Assembly: GCA_001873005.1 (NCBI GenBank)
Contig: MNYE01000008.1
Coordinates: forward strand, 1 to 5,726
Direction: 5' to 3'
From: Dehalococcoidia bacterium CG2_30_46_9
Lineage (GTDB): Bacteria > Chloroflexota > Dehalococcoidia > GIF9 > AB-539-J10
Length of the DNA stretch: 5,726 nt
The notes under the pieces are model-generated. The model saw only the letters and a program-made list of their open reading frames with translations, made no database searches and was not told the origin of the DNA. Each line of letters opens with the position of its first letter. Position 1 is the first letter of the stretch. Below are positions 244 through 5,454 of the stretch, in pieces. The position numbers and the translations under genes were made by a program.

Positions 244-265
244 CTTGACATTCTGGCATTTAAAG

Positions 266-367
266 AGGTTGTTTATTTTGTCACCCTGACCCTGAAACAA
301 GTTCAGGGGAAGGGTCTAGATTCTTCGCTACGCTCAGAATGACAGCTGGGGGTTGCTAAACACTCTC
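266..367. repeat. Composite palindromic repeat, copy 1 (intergenic)
   Basis: The block starts with aggttgttta (266-275) and ends with gttgctaaacactctc (352-367). Its outer ends are imperfect inverted repeats: 265-275 pairs with 357-367 at 9 of 11 positions. Inside are two stem-loops. The first has GTCA at 280-283, a stem CCCT/AGGG at 284-287 and 311-314 that encloses a second palindrome ccctgaaacaagttcaggg (290-308), then TCT. The second lies on the minus strand at 318-343 and has GTCA, stem TTCT/AGAA, loop of 11 nt, then TCT. No coding function is seen. It shares both ends with the block at 536-635. Confidence 0.8.
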
Positions 368-404
368 CATTTAAGCGAATTGTTAAGCAAAGGCTTAATA
401 AAAC

Positions 405-479
405 TGGAGCGGGTGATGGGATTCGAACCCACGGCTCCTTGCTTGGGAAGCAAGCACTCTACCGCTGAGTTACACCCGC
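405..479 (-). tRNA. tRNA-Gly (anticodon CCC)
   Basis: Read on the minus strand this folds into a complete cloverleaf. The 7-bp acceptor stem is GCGGGTG (479-473) with CACCCGC (415-409); the discriminator is U and CCA is encoded in the genome (407-405). The anticodon stem CTTGC/GCAAG closes a 7-nt loop TTCCCAA whose middle bases CCC (447-445) read the glycine codon GGG. The T-arm has the standard GGTTCGAATCC. Length is 75 nt with CCA. A U discriminator agrees with bacterial glycine tRNAs. It is transcribed away from purQ and lies between two directly repeated copies of a composite repeat. A weak 6-bp stem just downstream (383-398) lacks a U-tract, so no convincing terminator is visible. Confidence 0.97.
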
Positions 480-492
480 CCAAACTGTATTT

Positions 493-521
493 ATTTTAAC
501 CCTAAAATCCATAGCTGTAAA
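493..521 (-). promoter_or_regulatory. Sigma70-like promoter for tRNA-Gly
   Basis: On the minus strand a -35 box TTTACA (521-516, 5 of 6 consensus) is followed after exactly 17 bp by a -10 box TAAAAT (498-493, 5 of 6). A start about 7 nt downstream of the -10 box falls near 486, only a few bases before the mature tRNA 5' end at 479. Confidence 0.7.
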
Positions 522-535
522 GTGATCTAGTCCCA

Positions 536-635
536 AGGTTGTTTAATAATGCTTTCCTCCTTGTCACCCTGAACTTGTTTCAGGGTCTCGGGAGATGCCG
601 AAACGAGTTCGGCATGACAGTTGCTAAACACTCTC
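536..635. repeat. Composite palindromic repeat, copy 2 (intergenic)
   Basis: This block has the same left end (aggttgttta, 536-545) and right end (gttgctaaacactctc, 620-635) as the block at 266-367, in the same orientation. Inside it are two hairpins in opposite orientation. On plus: GTCA (563-566), stem CCCT/AGGG, loop gaacttgtttc, TCT (586-588). On minus: GTCA (618-615), stem TGCC/GGCA, loop gaactcgtttc, TCT (595-593). The two loops differ at one base while the stems differ but remain paired. The head-to-head arrangement is like a REP-pair (BIME). Open frames that cross it on both strands are repeat translations, not genes. Confidence 0.8.
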
Positions 636-650
636 ATAGTCCAGATAGAT

Positions 651-882
651 GGGTGACACTTTATATGCTTGTGAAATTGGGTAATAACCCCTATGTCATT
701 GCGAGCCGAAGGCGTGGCAATCTTGTTACGAATGCGGGATCTGTTACAGTTAGAGTAAGGAATCTCGCTCAGAGATTGCGGAGCCTGTTCCGAGCGCAAG
801 CGAGGAATCCCTATCCCCAGTTTGCTTCGGCTACGCCTCGCAACCACTATCGCTCCTCGCAATGACGAAAAAAGGGTGTCAC
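651..882. repeat. Nested inverted-repeat block, possible MITE or element remnant
   Basis: The outer ends are inverted: gtgacac at 653-659 and gtgtcac at 876-882, each in a similar setting (gggtgacacttt on the left, aaagggtgtcac on the right). Nested inside is a 172-bp unit (695-866) with perfect 11-bp inverted ends, gtcattgcgag and ctcgcaatgac. That unit starts with GTCA, stem TTGC/GCAA (699-702, 717-720), TCT (721-723), and its right end has GTCA-TTGC on the minus strand. It contains smaller internal near-repeats around ggaatc and agattgc. No credible gene lies here. An element remnant that later received a palindromic repeat is one reading; a single long imperfect palindrome is another. Confidence 0.6.
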
Positions 883-1704: not shown

Positions 1705-3955
1705 AGTTGCCCTAAGCGAAGACGAATATAAACTCATTGTCCAGCGTCTGGGCAGAGAACCCAACGAGGTAGAGCTGGGAATGTTGGGTTCTTTATGGAG
1801 CGAGCATTGCGGCTATAAGCATTCCAAACCTCTGCTTAAGTTCTTACCGTCCAAAGGCAAGGGTGTGATGGTCAAAGCAGGGGAGGAAAATGCTGGAGCA
1901 ATAGATATTGGTGATGGGATGGTTGTGGTGATGAAAATGGAATCTCATAATCACCCCTCAGCAGTTGAGCCTTATCAAGGTGCCGCTACCGGCATAGGTG
2001 GCATTGTGCGTGATATCTTTACTATGGGCGCTAGACCTATTGCTCTGCTTAACTCACTCCGTTTCGGTCCTTTGACTCAAGCTCGCAACCGCTATTTATT
2101 TAACGGTGTCATTGCTGGCATTGCTGCCTATGGGAATTGTTTAGGCATACCTAATGTCGGGGGCGAAATCTTTTTTGCTGATTGCTATTCCACCAACCCC
2201 TTAGTCAATGTTTTATGTTTGGGAATTGCTGAAAAGGGTAAGTTAGTTAGGGCTAAAACCAGTGGTGCCGACGACTTGCTTGTGCTGGCAGGAGCCGATA
2301 CCGGGCGTGATGGGATTTACGGTGCATCAGGATTGGCGTCGCGTACTTTCGAAGATGAGCGGGAATTAAGGCCAACAGTTCAGGTAGGTAATCCTTTCTT
2401 AGAGAAACTGCTTATAGAGGCGTGCCTTGAGCTAGCTCAAACTGACTGGATAGTTGGCATGCAAGACCTGGGAGCTGCCGGACTCACCAGCGCTACTGTA
2501 GAGTCTGCTGCTAGAGGCGGATGTGGCATGGAAATAGATGTGCTCAAAGTGCCTCGCCGTGAAGAAGATATGACACCTTACGAGGTGATGCTATCAGAAT
2601 CACAAGAGCGGATGCTGGTGATTGTGAAGAAAGACTACAAAGATAGAGTGAAGAGTCTATTTGATCGCTGGGAAATTCCCTCCAATGTCATTGGTCGAGT
2701 TAGCAACAATGGTTTGGCTGTAATTAAGGAGGGGGATAAGGTTGTCGCTCAAATCCCCGTGAGCTTGCTTGTTTCTCCCCCTTTTTATCGCCCACGGGTG
2801 AAAAAACCATCATGGATTACTGAACTTCAATCTTTTAAGGCCAACACTGTTCCTGATCTTAAGCCAAGGCAATGTAATTCCGTTCTACTTCGCCTGCTTG
2901 CTTCCCCCAATATTGCCAGCAAAGAGTTGGTCTATCGGCAGTATGACCACCAGGTAATGAATAATTCTGTCGTTCTTCCTGGTAATGACGCTGCCGTCCT
3001 GCGTATTAAGCCTTCGCCCAAACCCTCTCCCTTGAAGGGAGAGGGCAAGGAGAGGGTGAAAGGCATTGCTCTGACTACCGATGGCAACAGTAGATACTGC
3101 TATCTTGATCCTTTTTTGGGCGGGGTGATTGCGGTAGCTGAGGCGGCACGAAATTTGGTTTGTAGTGGTGCTGAGCCTCTGGCTATTACTGACTGCCTTA
3201 ACTTTGGTAATCCGGAAAGAAAAGACGTAATGTATTGCTTAGAGCAATGCATTAAGGGCATAGCTCGAGCCTGTCGCGAGTGGCAAATTCCAGTCATAAG
3301 TGGCAACGTCAGCCTTTATAATGAAACCAAGGGCAACGCTATTTATCCTACTCCGGTTATAGGGATGGTGGGTCTCTTAGACGACATAAATACCTATTGC
3401 ACTATCTCTTTCAAAGACGAGGGCGATTTAGTATTCCTGCTGGGTAATCTTCTGCCTCCTGGCGACAATGAGAACGGTCTTGGCGGCAGTGAATATCTGG
3501 AATTGGTTCACGGCTTAGTGAAAGGCAAGCCGGCTATTGCTCTCGATTTGGAAAAAAGAGTGCAGTGTTGCTGTTTGGAAGCTATAAAGAAAGGAATTAT
3601 TAAATCAGCCCATGATTGTTCTGATGGTGGGTTGGCGGTAGCCATCGCCGAAAGCTGCATCATGGGCAACATTGGCTTTCAGAGTGAAGGAGTCCATCCT
3701 GAATCAAGTTCAGGGCAGGACTCCAGACTAGACTCAATTCTTTTTGGAGAACATCAATCCCGTATTGTGGTATCAATAGTGCTTAGTTCGGTAGTTAAAT
3801 TAACTAAGATAGCTAGAAAATGGCAAGCACCTTTGACCTTCCTGGGCAAGGTTGGGGGAGGACGTCTGGTTATCGAAAGTTGTATTGACTTGCCTTTGAC
3901 GAAGGTGAGAGGCGCCTGGTGTGGCGGCCTGTCAAAGGTGATGTTTGCCGTTTAA
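1676..3955 (+). CDS. purL: Phosphoribosylformylglycinamidine synthase subunit PurL (small form)
   Basis: PurL uses ATP and ammonia supplied by PurQ to turn FGAR into FGAM. The 759-residue product is the small (PurLQS-type) form with two tandem AIRS-like halves. Visible landmarks are [14 protein letters not shown] with His44, [20 protein letters not shown] with His91 (both match active-site histidines of the family), [28 protein letters not shown], then in the second half [53 protein letters not shown] and [12 protein letters not shown]. It starts at a TTG inside purQ and ends 2 bp before the DUF1015 gene. Two palindromic repeats lie in frame, at residues about 445-463 and 672-683, between conserved blocks and probably in surface loops. 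All core motifs are intact, so the enzyme is expected to be active. Confidence 0.97.
3019..3060. repeat. Palindromic repeat in frame inside purL
   Basis: A near-perfect hairpin has 11-bp arms, ccctctccctt (3023-3033) and aagggagaggg (3035-3045), around a single central g. It is followed by a partial repeat of the right arm, agagggtgaa (3051-3060). It encodes the low-complexity stretch [15 protein letters not shown] (residues 449-463) between AVLRIK and IALTTDGN, which normally sit close together in PurL. A related hairpin is in the DUF1015 gene at 4515-4553. Confidence 0.8.
3689..3724. repeat. Palindromic repeat in frame inside purL (second site)
   Basis: The core cctgaatcaagttcaggg (3698-3715) matches the intergenic hairpin core at 290-308 with one base change. 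Outer arms ggagtcc (3689-3695) and ggactcc (3718-3724) extend the stem. It encodes [12 protein letters not shown] (residues 672-683) just before the conserved [10 protein letters not shown] block. Confidence 0.65.
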
Positions 3956-3957
3956 AT

Positions 3958-5454
3958 ATGGAAATTCGTCCTTTTTGTGGCATACGCTACAGCAAGAAAA
4001 TAGTGGGAGATTTGGCTTCGGTCATTTGCCCACCCTACGATGTCATCACACCGGAGACGCAGAAGTGTTACTACCAGAGGAGTAACTACAATATCATTCG
4101 CCTGGAATATCCCTGTCCTGAAAACCCTGAACTTGTTTCAGGGTCAGGATTACAGCCTACAGAATATCCTGAACTTGTTTCAGGATATAAGAAAGCGGCT
4201 GCTATCTTCCGAGAATGGCTTGAGAGAGGTATTCTTAAGTTTGATGATATTCCGGCTTTTTACCTCCATGATTGCTATTTTACTTACCTGGGCGTGGAAA
4301 AGAGACGGCGTGGGCTCATAGCCTGTCTTAGATTGGCACCCTGGGGTAGTGGTATATATCCTCACGAAGAAACTTCTTTGAGGGATAAAAGCGATCGTCT
4401 ACAGCTTATGAGAGCTTGTCAAGCTAATTTTAGCCCGCTATTCTGTCTTTATCAGGATCCCAAGAAAGAAATTACCTCTATATTGTCTGAGGTGGCACAA
4501 AGCAGCCCAATAATCTCCTCTCCCTTGACGGGAGAGGATGAAGGTGAGGGTGATCAAAGGCACATCGTCTGGGCAATAACTGAGTCTAAACTCCAGCAAA
4601 GGCTGTCCGCTCTCAGCCATCAGGTATCACCTGTTATTATGGCTGACGGACATCACCGCTATGAGACAGCTCTCATTTATCAGCAAGAAAGAACACGTCT
4701 ATCGCCAAAGTCTGGATCTTCGCAAGCCTTTAACTATGTGATGGTAAGTTTGGTTGAGTTTTCTGACCCTGGTTTGTTTATTTTCCCTGTTCACAGACTG
4801 GTGCGGAGTATAAAGCCTCTCTCCCACCCCTCGACAGATAAGGTGGGAGGAGGGGAGGGCCTCCCTCTCTCCTGCCTGATAAACCGACTCGAGGATTTCT
4901 TCACCTTAGAATTTATACCACTCGTCCCTCGCCAGATAAGGTGGGAGGTGAGGAGGGCCTCCTCTCTAAATGCATCTATCATTTCCAGTTCAAGGGTACG
5001 CCTATCCTCACGTCCCTCGCCAGATAAGGTGGGAGGAGGGGAGGGCCTCCTCTCTAATCGTCCTGAGCGAAGCGAAGGATCTCTCGGTGTTTTAGGTTTG
5101 AAACACGGATATCTAGCGCTCCTGAGGGAACGGCAAAATGTTTCCCTCATAGATATGCTGCCAGCCAATCGGTCCCAGGTTTACCAAAAGTTCGACATAA
5201 GTATTCTCAACCACGTTATTCTCGATAAGATACTGGGGCTCAGCATAGAGGAAGGAAATATTGCCTATACTGCGGATGCTGCTGAAGCCCAACAGCGGGT
5301 GGAGAGTGGAGAGTGCCAGCTAGCCTTTTTAGTGAATCCTCCACAGACAAAAACGATCAAAGCTGTTGTTGATGCTGGAGATAGAATGCCCCGGAAATCG
5401 ACCTATTTTTATCCCAAGATGCCTGCTGGGCTAATAATTAATTCCCTCGATTAA
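3958..5454 (+). CDS. DUF1015 family protein with in-frame repeat insertions
   Basis: The product is 498 residues; family members are, from memory, roughly 400-430, and the excess is about what the repeats would add. Family motifs are present in order: MEIRPFCGIRYSKK at the start, VICPPYDVI (22-30), YPHEETS (134-140), IMADGHHRYETALIY (227-241) and MPRKSTYFYPKMPAGLI (477-493). No signal peptide or membrane segment is seen, so it is probably cytosolic. Its biochemical role is not established to my knowledge. The ATG at 3958 is chosen because the family N-terminus starts there; a GTG at 3919 would add 13 non-conserved residues inside purL. It begins 2 bp after purL stops, with only a distant AAAGGTG (3934-3940), so coupling to purL is likely. 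Seven repeat units lie between the conserved blocks at about residues 53-77, 187-199 and 289-375, and none breaks the frame. Confidence 0.9.
   Translation: MEIRPFCGIRYSKKIVGDLASVICPPYDVITPETQKCYYQRSNYNIIRLEYPCPENPELVSGSGLQPTEYPELVSGYKKAAAIFREWLERGILKFDDIPAFYLHDCYFTYLGVEKRRRGLIACLRLAPWGSGIYPHEETSLRDKSDRLQLMRACQANFSPLFCLYQDPKKEITSILSEVAQSSPIISSPLTGEDEGEGDQRHIVWAITESKLQQRLSALSHQVSPVIMADGHHRYETALIYQQERTRLSPKSGSSQAFNYVMVSLVEFSDPGLFIFPVHRLVRSIKPLSHPSTDKVGGGEGLPLSCLINRLEDFFTLEFIPLVPRQIRWEVRRASSLNASIISSSRVRLSSRPSPDKVGGGEGLLSNRPERSEGSLGVLGLKHGYLALLRERQNVSLIDMLPANRSQVYQKFDISILNHVILDKILGLSIEEGNIAYTADAAEAQQRVESGECQLAFLVNPPQTKTIKAVVDAGDRMPRKSTYFYPKMPAGLIINSLD
4116..4149. repeat. Palindromic repeat in DUF1015 gene, site 1
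   Basis: The core ccctgaacttgtttcaggg (4125-4143) is identical to the intergenic copy at 567-585. Outer arms tcctga (4116-4121) and tcagga (4144-4149) pair as well. It is read as ENPELVSGSG (residues 55-64). Confidence 0.85.
4164..4188. repeat. Palindromic repeat in DUF1015 gene, site 2
   Basis: Perfect 10-bp arms, atatcctgaa (4164-4173) and ttcaggatat (4179-4188), surround loop cttgt. The loop and inner stem match site 1, while the outer stem differs yet remains fully paired. It is read as YPELVSGY (residues 70-77), in the same frame as site 1, 15 bp after it. Confidence 0.85.
4515..4553. repeat. Palindromic repeat in DUF1015 gene, site 3
   Basis: Arms cctctccc (4517-4524) and gggagagg (4530-4537) enclose loop ttgac, followed by the partial repeat gatgaaggtgagggtga. 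This belongs to the family seen in purL at 3019-3060. It is read as SSPLTGEDEGEGD (187-199), acidic and low in complexity, between ILSEVAQ and HIVWAI. Confidence 0.75.
4821..4870. repeat. 43-bp repeat in DUF1015 gene, copy 1 of 3
   Basis: The shared unit is 4828-4870. Inverted arms ctcccacc (4821-4828) and ggtgggag (4842-4849) form a hairpin. It is read as HPSTDKVGGGEGLPLS (residues 290-305), the same frame as copy 3. Confidence 0.85.
4924..4967. repeat. 43-bp repeat in DUF1015 gene, copy 2 of 3, read in a different frame
   Basis: The shared unit is 4926-4967 and differs from copy 3 at only one base. It begins 98 bp after copy 1, which is not a multiple of three, so the translation is shifted: VPRQIRWEVRRASSL (residues 323-337) instead of the GGGEG-type peptide. 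Confidence 0.85.
5012..5055. repeat. 43-bp repeat in DUF1015 gene, copy 3 of 3
   Basis: The shared unit is 5014-5055, beginning ccctcgccagataaggtggg. It is read as PSPDKVGGGEGLLS (353-366), the same frame as copy 1. It abuts the next repeat after 4 bp. Confidence 0.85.
5060..5082. repeat. Short hairpin repeat in DUF1015 gene, after the 43-bp repeat
   Basis: The stem TCCT/AGGA (5061-5064, 5076-5079) encloses gagcgaagcga and is followed by TCT (5080-5082). Except for one loop base and the paired stem change, this matches the minus-strand hairpin at 318-343 (stem TTCT/AGAA, TCT). It is read as RPERSEGS (residues 368-375). Confidence 0.75.

Follow-up and report, generated by a model that had tools for sequence, protein, structure and literature searches.

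TGTC-tagged REP-like palindromes in a Dehalococcoidia genome and their association with a small GIY-YIG nuclease gene

Tagged hairpins at the locus

The analyzed window, i.e. the whole stretch of 5,726 nt, comprises bases 1-5726 of contig C37 in a genome of 1.08 Mb that is 82.75% complete. It contains purL, for which Dehalococcoidia and Chloroflexota records were the nearest (identities up to 75%), an open reading frame at 3919-5454, a tRNA-Gly gene on the minus strand (405-479) and, on either side of the latter, two inverted-repeat units that were termed type B (Table 1). The original prediction placed five hairpins of a single architecture in this region, and all five were recovered where they had been described. 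A hairpin rule was formulated with these hairpins already known and demands GTC, a perfect 5-bp stem opening with an A-T pair, and C[CT]. Matches to this rule in the window were exactly the five hairpins, while 300 dinucleotide shuffles of the window gave a mean of 0.21 matches (maximum 2) and the remaining 63 trinucleotide tags averaged 0.38 matches under the same rule (maximum 3). One subfamily pattern was matched 33 times across the genome and its reversed control was not matched at all.

The hairpins had been described as flanked by GTCA on the 5' side and TCT on the 3' side. The flanks are indeed fixed, but the closing base pair is formed by the A of GTCA and the initial T of TCT, and the tag is therefore TGTC and not GTCA, which leaves TGTC (5') and CT (3') as the unpaired parts. 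The first stem pair is A-T in all five hairpins and the second is T-A in three. Window tails read CTC in two hairpins, CTA in two and CTT in one; a CTC tail was present in 41 of 42 family copies, which were picked by eye among 81 scanner matches in this genome. Hairpins 563-588 and 593-618 have 8-bp stems and the other three share a 5-bp outer stem. Folding as single-stranded DNA was better than in shuffled sequences for 280-317 (z = -3.5), 563-588 (z = -3.7) and 593-618 (z = -4.2). Hairpins 318-343 (z = -0.25) and 695-723 (z = -1.25), which have only the 5-bp outer stem, folded no better than shuffles.

Covariation of the paired stems, as originally claimed, was confirmed with 15 distinct copies that we chose from the genome copies and the window, with kinship among the copies left uncorrected. 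Pairing was found in 97.5% of the alignment cells and reached at most 48.3% when the structure was slid. Double-change cells numbered 13, compared to 3.9 in shuffles (reached by 0 of 500), and the covariation score of 0.37 (0.16 shuffled) lay above all 500 shuffles. Four of eight pairs changed on both sides (2.2 shuffled, reached by 11 of 500), and eight further pair types were counted (6.7 shuffled, reached by 95 of 500). A few GU pairs are tolerated in the stems.

Several palindromes are nested within others. The loop of 280-317 is replaced by an inverted CCCTGAA..TTCAGGG hairpin (290-308), and hairpins within the loop or stem of other hairpins were also observed in the L185:1364 region and at L200:3968-4082. 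The bare CCTGAA..TTCAGG core seems to insert by itself into palindromes. Several palindromes also lie in frame within open reading frame 3919-5454, at 4125-4188 and 4810-5085 (PELVSG twice, DKVGGGEG twice, PERSEG), and are similar to the in-gene palindromes of Rickettsia reported in PMC3733652. A different palindrome, CCCTCTCCCTTGAAGGGAGAGGG, lies in frame within purL (residues 449-461, window 3023-3045); at least six of eight relatives, and by eye all eight, lack the 13 residues in question.

Table 1. Hairpins, inverted-repeat units and associated features of the window
Feature	Position	Strand	Evidence
Left CATTTAA of a probable 7-bp target duplication, separated from the unit by one extra base	257..263	.	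sequence; in register 3 mismatches in 7
Type B unit, diverged copy, 103 bp; ends GAGGTTGTTTA.. / ..TAAACACTCTC	265..367	+	unit alignment
TGTC-tagged hairpin, second inverted hairpin (290-308) replacing the loop	280..317	+	sequence, folding, rule scan
TGTC-tagged hairpin GTCATTCTGAGCGTAGCGAAGAATCT, 5-bp outer stem	318..343	-	folding, rule scan
Right probable target duplication CATTTAA	368..374	.	sequence, duplication scoring
Type B unit, 101 bp	535..635	+	copy alignment, relative search
Left terminal inverted repeat AAGGTTGTTTAATAA	535..549	+	copy alignment
TGTC-tagged hairpin GTCACCCTGAACTTGTTTCAGGGTCT	563..588	+	pattern search, copy alignment, folding, rule scan
TGTC-tagged hairpin GTCATGCCGAACTCGTTTCGGCATCT; outward-tag pair with 563-588	593..618	-	pattern search, copy alignment, folding, rule scan
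Right terminal inverted repeat, minus-strand reading GAGAGTGTTTAGCAA	621..635	-	copy alignment
TGTC-tagged ATTGC-type hairpin; begins a composite ending in inverted GTCATTGCGAG at 856-866	695..723	+	sequence, folding, rule scan
Bare core palindrome CCCTGAACTTGTTTCAGGG, no tag, in ORF 3919-5454	4125..4143	+	sequence
Bare palindrome ATATCCTGAACTTGTTTCAGGATAT, no tag, in ORF 3919-5454	4164..4188	+	sequence

Inverted-repeat units and target duplications

Four of the five window hairpins reside inside two inverted-repeat units of 101-103 bp that the original prediction had overlooked. Copies were aligned from 326 kb of the genome, i.e. 41 stretches consisting of 20 that carried matches, 20 taken in contig order and the window itself. 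Many hairpins of the genome are paired with their tags pointing outward and lie within longer conserved units, though not every copy is paired. Two types of unit were distinguished. Type A has the ends GTAACTACACAGCC and GTAACTACTCACC (pattern GTAACTAC.CA.CC), and type B is bounded by GAGGTTGTTTA and GAGAGYGTTTA (pattern GAG.G.GTTTA). The last 16 nucleotides of the type B right end are identical at 352-367 and 620-635 of the window. The 101-bp type B unit was found at seven further places in this genome with 93-101 matched bases and 74-99% identity, and flanks are shared between two of these places on C82 and also between C9 and C111. Among 60 other relatives no full copy of this unit was found and three short core matches were confined to one genome; a search of viral contigs for the type B right end together with the tag returned no hits.

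Target duplications were scored for both types. Six of ten type A units have a duplication with at most one mismatch over 8 bp (shuffled mean 1.0, maximum 5). For type B, four of seven units were positive over 7 bp; two of these four represent one repeated C82 locus, and the observed value was reached by the shuffles (mean 0.87, maximum 4). Both type B copies of the window were scored as misses, as the 7-bp duplication is out of register by one base in one copy and the other retains only a decayed trace. Terminal inverted repeats combined with a target duplication are the hallmarks of MITEs and both are found in type A and type B units. Like bacterial MITEs, these units are approximately 100 bp in length, with terminal inverted repeats and duplications of 7 or 8 bp; unlike MITEs, they contain hairpin pairs with a fixed tag and, in one copy, a nuclease gene, and no cognate transposase was found. 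Judging from these sequence features, a second enzyme of the transposase type probably spread the inverted-repeat frames in this genome. The transposase search for the unit ends covered Y1 enzymes and yielded no owner of type A or type B ends.

Y1 and RAYT transposases

The original prediction compared the hairpins to REP elements and attributed their mobility, by inference, to RAYT/TnpA_REP (HUH Y1) transposases. The REP-like plan, with one architecture, paired stem changes and a fixed tag, was retained, while the link to RAYT/TnpA_REP was not. No match to the Y1_Tnp profile was detected in this genome at its 82.75% completeness. A Y1 match exists in 94 of 294 genomes of the class, and the 30 best Y1 loci from these genomes had GTC-tagged hairpins neither on both sides nor on any side. 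Twenty RAYT-like loci gave none with hairpins on both sides and one with a hairpin on any side, so that the proposed search for a Y1 or RAYT gene flanked by the same hairpins ended at 0 of 30 and 0 of 20 loci. Other palindromes adjoin the RAYT-like gene in three of eight loci listed (G150, G116 and G019) and are headed by GGTAGG in two of them. RAYT/Y1 was rejected as the mobilizer on the basis of the missing genome match, the missing flanked Y1 loci and the other palindromes at RAYT-like genes. The RAYT-like genes of G150, G116 and G019 are located at L142, L143 and L144, and in G150 two REP systems may be present together with GTCA hairpins.

A GIY-YIG nuclease gene between hairpins

Two matches to PF01541 were obtained in this genome. 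One is located on a 619-aa open frame and was taken for a putative UvrC. The second lies between two GTCA hairpins and type A ends, in a gene-bearing type A element of 435 bp (C134:1100-1534) whose two hairpins enclose an intact open reading frame for a GIY-YIG nuclease. This reading frame runs into the downstream hairpin, where the TGA of a TGAC serves as its stop codon. As the loop of the upstream hairpin is interrupted by another hairpin, the locus counts as a miss under the both-sides rule used below. Gene-less units of this genome match the C134 element in their hairpins and ends, and a version of the window's type B unit that carries the gene was not encountered.

A relative of the GIY-YIG gene is present in 125 of the 294 class genomes, with up to 16 copies. 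The best-scoring locus was taken from each of the 30 best genomes; eight of these 30 loci have a stop codon in the matched stretch. A strict scan for 8-bp stems was tried first and found hairpins on both sides at only 8 of 30 loci, a shortfall due to the 5-bp outer stems of the ATTCT and ATTGC types; the stem length required by the rule was subsequently lowered to 5 bp. Dehalococcoidia loci were seen before the rule was fixed and are therefore regarded as the discovery set, while plasmid, viral-contig and Armatimonadota loci served as replication sets with the rule unchanged. Outward-tagged hairpins were found on both sides of the GIY-YIG gene at 17 of 30 Dehalococcoidia loci and on any side at 28 of 30. 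The purL control gave 0 of 30 and 2 of 30, respectively. Within the same Dehalococcoidia loci, random places were flanked on both sides in 0 of 287 cases (35 on any side) and other open reading frames in 1 of 274 (95 on any side), and among the remaining 63 tags none exceeded 1 of 30 for both sides.

The association recurred in the replication sets. From plasmids, 33 records matched and 16 loci were scored, with near-duplicates skipped and some relatives remaining; hairpins were present on both sides in 9 of 16 and on any side in 13 of 16. Viral-contig loci, the first 34 by rank out of 50 with 16 weaker or cut loci left out, gave 9 of 34 and 17 of 34. None of the 50 plasmid and viral loci was flanked on both sides when five permuted tags were used. 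In the Armatimonadota set, i.e. the phylum set of genome G332, 71 of 291 genomes had a match, and 30 scored loci included 12 with hairpins on both sides and 25 with a hairpin on any side (next tag, 1). One locus of the Eggerthellales (Actinomycetota) likewise had hairpins on both sides. Loci without both hairpins by the rule amounted to 13 of 30 in Dehalococcoidia, 18 of 30 in the Armatimonadota set, 7 of 16 on plasmids and 25 of 34 in viral contigs. No match to the GIY-YIG protein was found in phage records.

Palindromes with a CGTC tag occur on both sides of the plasmid gene in Azospirillum lipoferum, Rhizobium, Neorhizobium, Shinella, Sphingobium and Aeromonas, and a Planktothrix plasmid locus has TGTC palindromes in this arrangement. 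A CCA tail is common beside the GIY-YIG gene in other genomes. The stop codon of the gene is the TGA of TGAC in 12 of 30 loci and ends the downstream hairpin in ten of these 12, as judged by eye. Additional arrangements were noted. Genome G008 has four copies of a GIY unit (L307, L308, L309 and L310; 86-94% identity) in another inverted-repeat frame with GGCTCTTTTTCA-like ends, which we take to resemble ISL3 ends, and the hairpin tag in these units is TCC/CCC instead of GTC. Locus L318 (G146:C1:576300-578430) is a tandem GIY-YIG pair that is 98% identical over 688 bp with ATTGC hairpins in between. In Sinorhizobium (L237, 1040-2060), a second GIY-YIG copy, truncated at its 3' end and accompanied by its own palindromes, was recognized by eye just upstream of the full gene.

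The encoded protein

The GIY-YIG domain was identified with PF01541 (E = 4.9e-17). In an alignment that covered 19 of 30 sequences, Y10, Y21, G23, R31, H35, E68 and N87 are invariant, which includes the catalytic Tyr, Arg and Glu of GIY-YIG nucleases. The protein model has a pLDDT of 88.5, and the best PDB folds retrieved with Foldseek were UPF0213 (1zg2), followed by Slx1 and UvrC. Slx1 is a nuclease that prefers branched DNA, in agreement with PDB titles. The protein resembles homing endonucleases, Slx1, UvrC and UPF0213 in its PF01541 catalytic domain, conserved residues and structural matches. It differs from them in being a single domain, with no intron or intein seen and with tagged palindromes on its flanks. 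Among the 120 relatives listed, identity ranges up to 99% and some sequences at 78-80% are named Nitrospinae, Nitrospirae or WOR-3, while the best other copy of the class that was listed has only 66% identity. As the matches named for other phyla exceed the best other class copy listed, the sequence comparison suggests that the GIY-YIG gene was transferred between phyla.

Presence and absence of cassettes and genome-wide association

Cassettes differ between close relatives at three places, in Azospirillum, Sinorhizobium and Sphingobium. Azospirillum lipoferum 4B has palindromes, the gene and again palindromes in the gap between sufB and sufC, and in A. oryzae, A. ramasamyi and strain B510 this gap has neither the gene nor such a palindrome. 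Between gltA and lpxB, one Sinorhizobium carries the gene with palindromes and another (L302) a single palindrome. At the fnrL/regulator site of Sphingobium, two filled plasmids have the cassette, two others (L303, L304) have a lone palindrome tagged on each end, and one has neither. The solo palindromes at these gene-less sites are tagged or nearly tagged at both ends. All allele comparisons involve diverged relatives, in which exact insertion points and target duplications are not readable.

Two hairpin patterns were counted and summed over the 294 class genomes. The GIY gene is present in 64 of 90 genomes with at least 20 hairpins compared to 61 of 204 others (OR 5.8). The corresponding numbers for Y1 are 42 of 90 and 52 of 204 (OR 2.6), a weaker association. 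A GIY match is missing in 26 of the 90 hairpin-rich genomes, 15 of which also lack Y1, and some genomes are incomplete. Permutation within families for the ATTC pattern gave an observed value of 53.7 for GIY (permuted sd 8.5) and 19.2 for Y1 (sd 6.5), and the Y1 association had p = 0.006 when conditioned on the GIY gene. The stem type at the gene tends to be the one that predominates in its genome (7 versus 19 genomes, p = 0.006), with stem types assigned partly by eye and four of the 30 loci left out that had other, mixed or no type. This agreement fails in 6 of 26 genomes, including the present one, which has 67 ATTGC and 36 ATTC matches and ATTC-type flanks at the gene. The top hairpin count among the 294 genomes was observed in G264, where 642 ATTC-type hairpins in 2.5 Mb occur together with two GIY-YIG matches.

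Relation to known palindrome families

A class of REPs with an unpaired CGTC, TGTC or CCTC was described by Di Nocera, De Gregorio and Rocco (2013, PMC3733652), with an 8-9 bp stem, A/T at the first two stem positions, a CCA tail and dimers that are mostly of the HH type. According to that paper, these elements "apparently lack a dedicated transposase" and the hosts listed there are Proteobacteria, Chlorobi, Bacteroidetes, Spirochaetes and Thermotogae, with Chloroflexi not among them. Judged against this written description, the window hairpins appear to belong to the CGTC/TGTC class by their tag and pair order; their stem length agrees less closely, and their tail deviates from it. All five carry the TGTC variant tag, open their stems with A-T and have a short 3' tail; the 8-bp-stem copies have 5-nt loops, outward-tag (HH) pairs are formed (280/343 and 563/618) and copies exist inside genes. 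Differences from the published class as described there are a tail of CT followed by C, A or T instead of CCA, and 5-bp stems with an inner bulge in some hairpins. Two species named in that paper also have the gene arrangement reported above. A. lipoferum carries CGTC palindromes on both sides of the GIY-YIG gene, and in Sinorhizobium meliloti a CGTC palindrome was found upstream by the rule and downstream by eye with one extra base.

REPtrons and REPINs of the GTAG type provide a second comparison, and REPINs are thought to be moved in trans by RAYTs. Inverted pairs of tagged hairpins, a gene-bearing copy between hairpins and gene-less copies elsewhere are common to both systems. The gene found here, however, encodes a GIY-YIG nuclease unrelated to HUH/Y1 enzymes and the tag is GTC instead of GTAG; neither a flanked Y1/RAYT gene nor a GTAG-type tag was found. 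No link between GIY-YIG nucleases and REPs was encountered in the open-licence papers searched, and a subscription paper may contain one.

A proposed role for the nuclease and alternative explanations

The link between gene and hairpins is strong. We propose that the hairpins are TGTC-tagged REP palindromes that are, with somewhat better than even probability, mobilized by the small GIY-YIG nuclease. That the nuclease moves the hairpins appears likely in view of the REP-RAYT logic, the polymorphic cassettes and the Slx1-like fold of the model. The enzyme is predicted to recognize the hairpin and to cut near the tag. Once the extruded hairpin is nicked or cut by this enzyme, the cassette would be copied through repair or recombination into a new site or an existing palindrome; the solo palindromes at gene-less sites, which have a tag or near-tag at both ends, fit such copying. 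Gene-less pairs could be deletion derivatives moved in trans, as is assumed for REPINs and RAYTs. Several observations speak against this nuclease reading. The terminal repeats and the duplications of 7 or 8 bp in this genome look like the work of a transposase and not of a GIY-YIG enzyme. The four G008 copies sit in another frame with a TCC/CCC tag, more than a quarter of the hairpin-rich genomes (26 of 90) have no GIY match, and Y1 retains a smaller association. Many GIY-YIG loci also lack a hairpin on at least one side by the rule, six of 26 genomes do not show the stem-type match, and type B units like those of the window were not found with the gene.

One alternative explanation, which appears unlikely, is that the hairpins came first, were spread by something else and are landing sites of a selfish GIY-YIG gene. 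The GIY-YIG family includes homing nucleases according to PMC1564403. Such homing is also consistent with the single palindromes at gene-less Sphingobium (L303, L304) and Sinorhizobium (L302) sites and with the lack of the gene in 26 of 90 hairpin-rich genomes. Nevertheless, those relatives of Azospirillum that lack the cassette have no palindrome of this kind there, the abundance of ATTC-type hairpins follows the gene within families, and the stop codon of the gene was placed by eye inside a hairpin in 10 of 30 loci. Slightly less likely is a MITE-like scenario, in which a DDE-type cut-and-paste transposase spreads the units via their terminal repeats, with the hairpin pairs as filling and the GIY-YIG gene uninvolved. 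This explanation draws on the terminal repeats, the target duplications of type A (6/10) and type B (4/7, a value that shuffles reach) and the G008 units with another terminal repeat. Against it stand the recurrence of the hairpin-gene association on plasmids, on viral contigs, in the Armatimonadota set and at one Actinomycetota locus, where no shared terminal repeat was noticed in passing, and the hairpin plan common to two unrelated frames of one genome; moreover, the search for a transposase with these ends, limited to Y1, found none.

Two further explanations are very improbable. Transcription terminators or RNA stability elements maintained by selection without any mobility would be compatible with the stable stems of three of the five hairpins, their intergenic position and the tolerance of a few GU pairs. 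Arguments against such a function are that near-identical pairs keep their ends conserved at unrelated places, that target duplications exist, that the elements are patchily distributed among relatives and that some copies lie inside reading frames. Mobilization by RAYT/TnpA_REP transposases is mostly refuted and retains the least credibility. The REP-like plan and the relation of Y1 presence to hairpin counts (OR 2.6), which is still seen within families once the GIY gene is conditioned on (p = 0.006), are in its favor; these points are opposed by the lack of a Y1 match in the genome, by 0 of 30 and 0 of 20 loci with GTC hairpins on both sides, by the other palindromes beside RAYT-like genes in three of eight loci, and by a tag of the CGTC/TGTC kind in place of GTAG.

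Mobilization by the GIY-YIG nuclease can be extended to a broader proposal, whose chances of being right or wrong we consider balanced. Single-domain GIY-YIG nucleases would be the dedicated mobilizers of CGTC/TGTC palindromes across bacteria and would constitute a separate hairpin-nuclease-hairpin class with Slx1-like, structure-selective cutting of extruded tagged hairpins. Gene-less pairs would then be REPIN-like parasites, and existing palindromes would serve as homing sites. A fixed gene partner would fill the transposase gap stated for CGTC REPs in the 2013 paper (PMC3733652), and the origin and spread of the palindromes would become a biochemical question about one protein of approximately 100 residues. 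If true, the proposal would suggest a role for the very common and uncharacterized "GIY-YIG nuclease family proteins" and would mean that REP systems have evolved with a nuclease unrelated to HUH enzymes.
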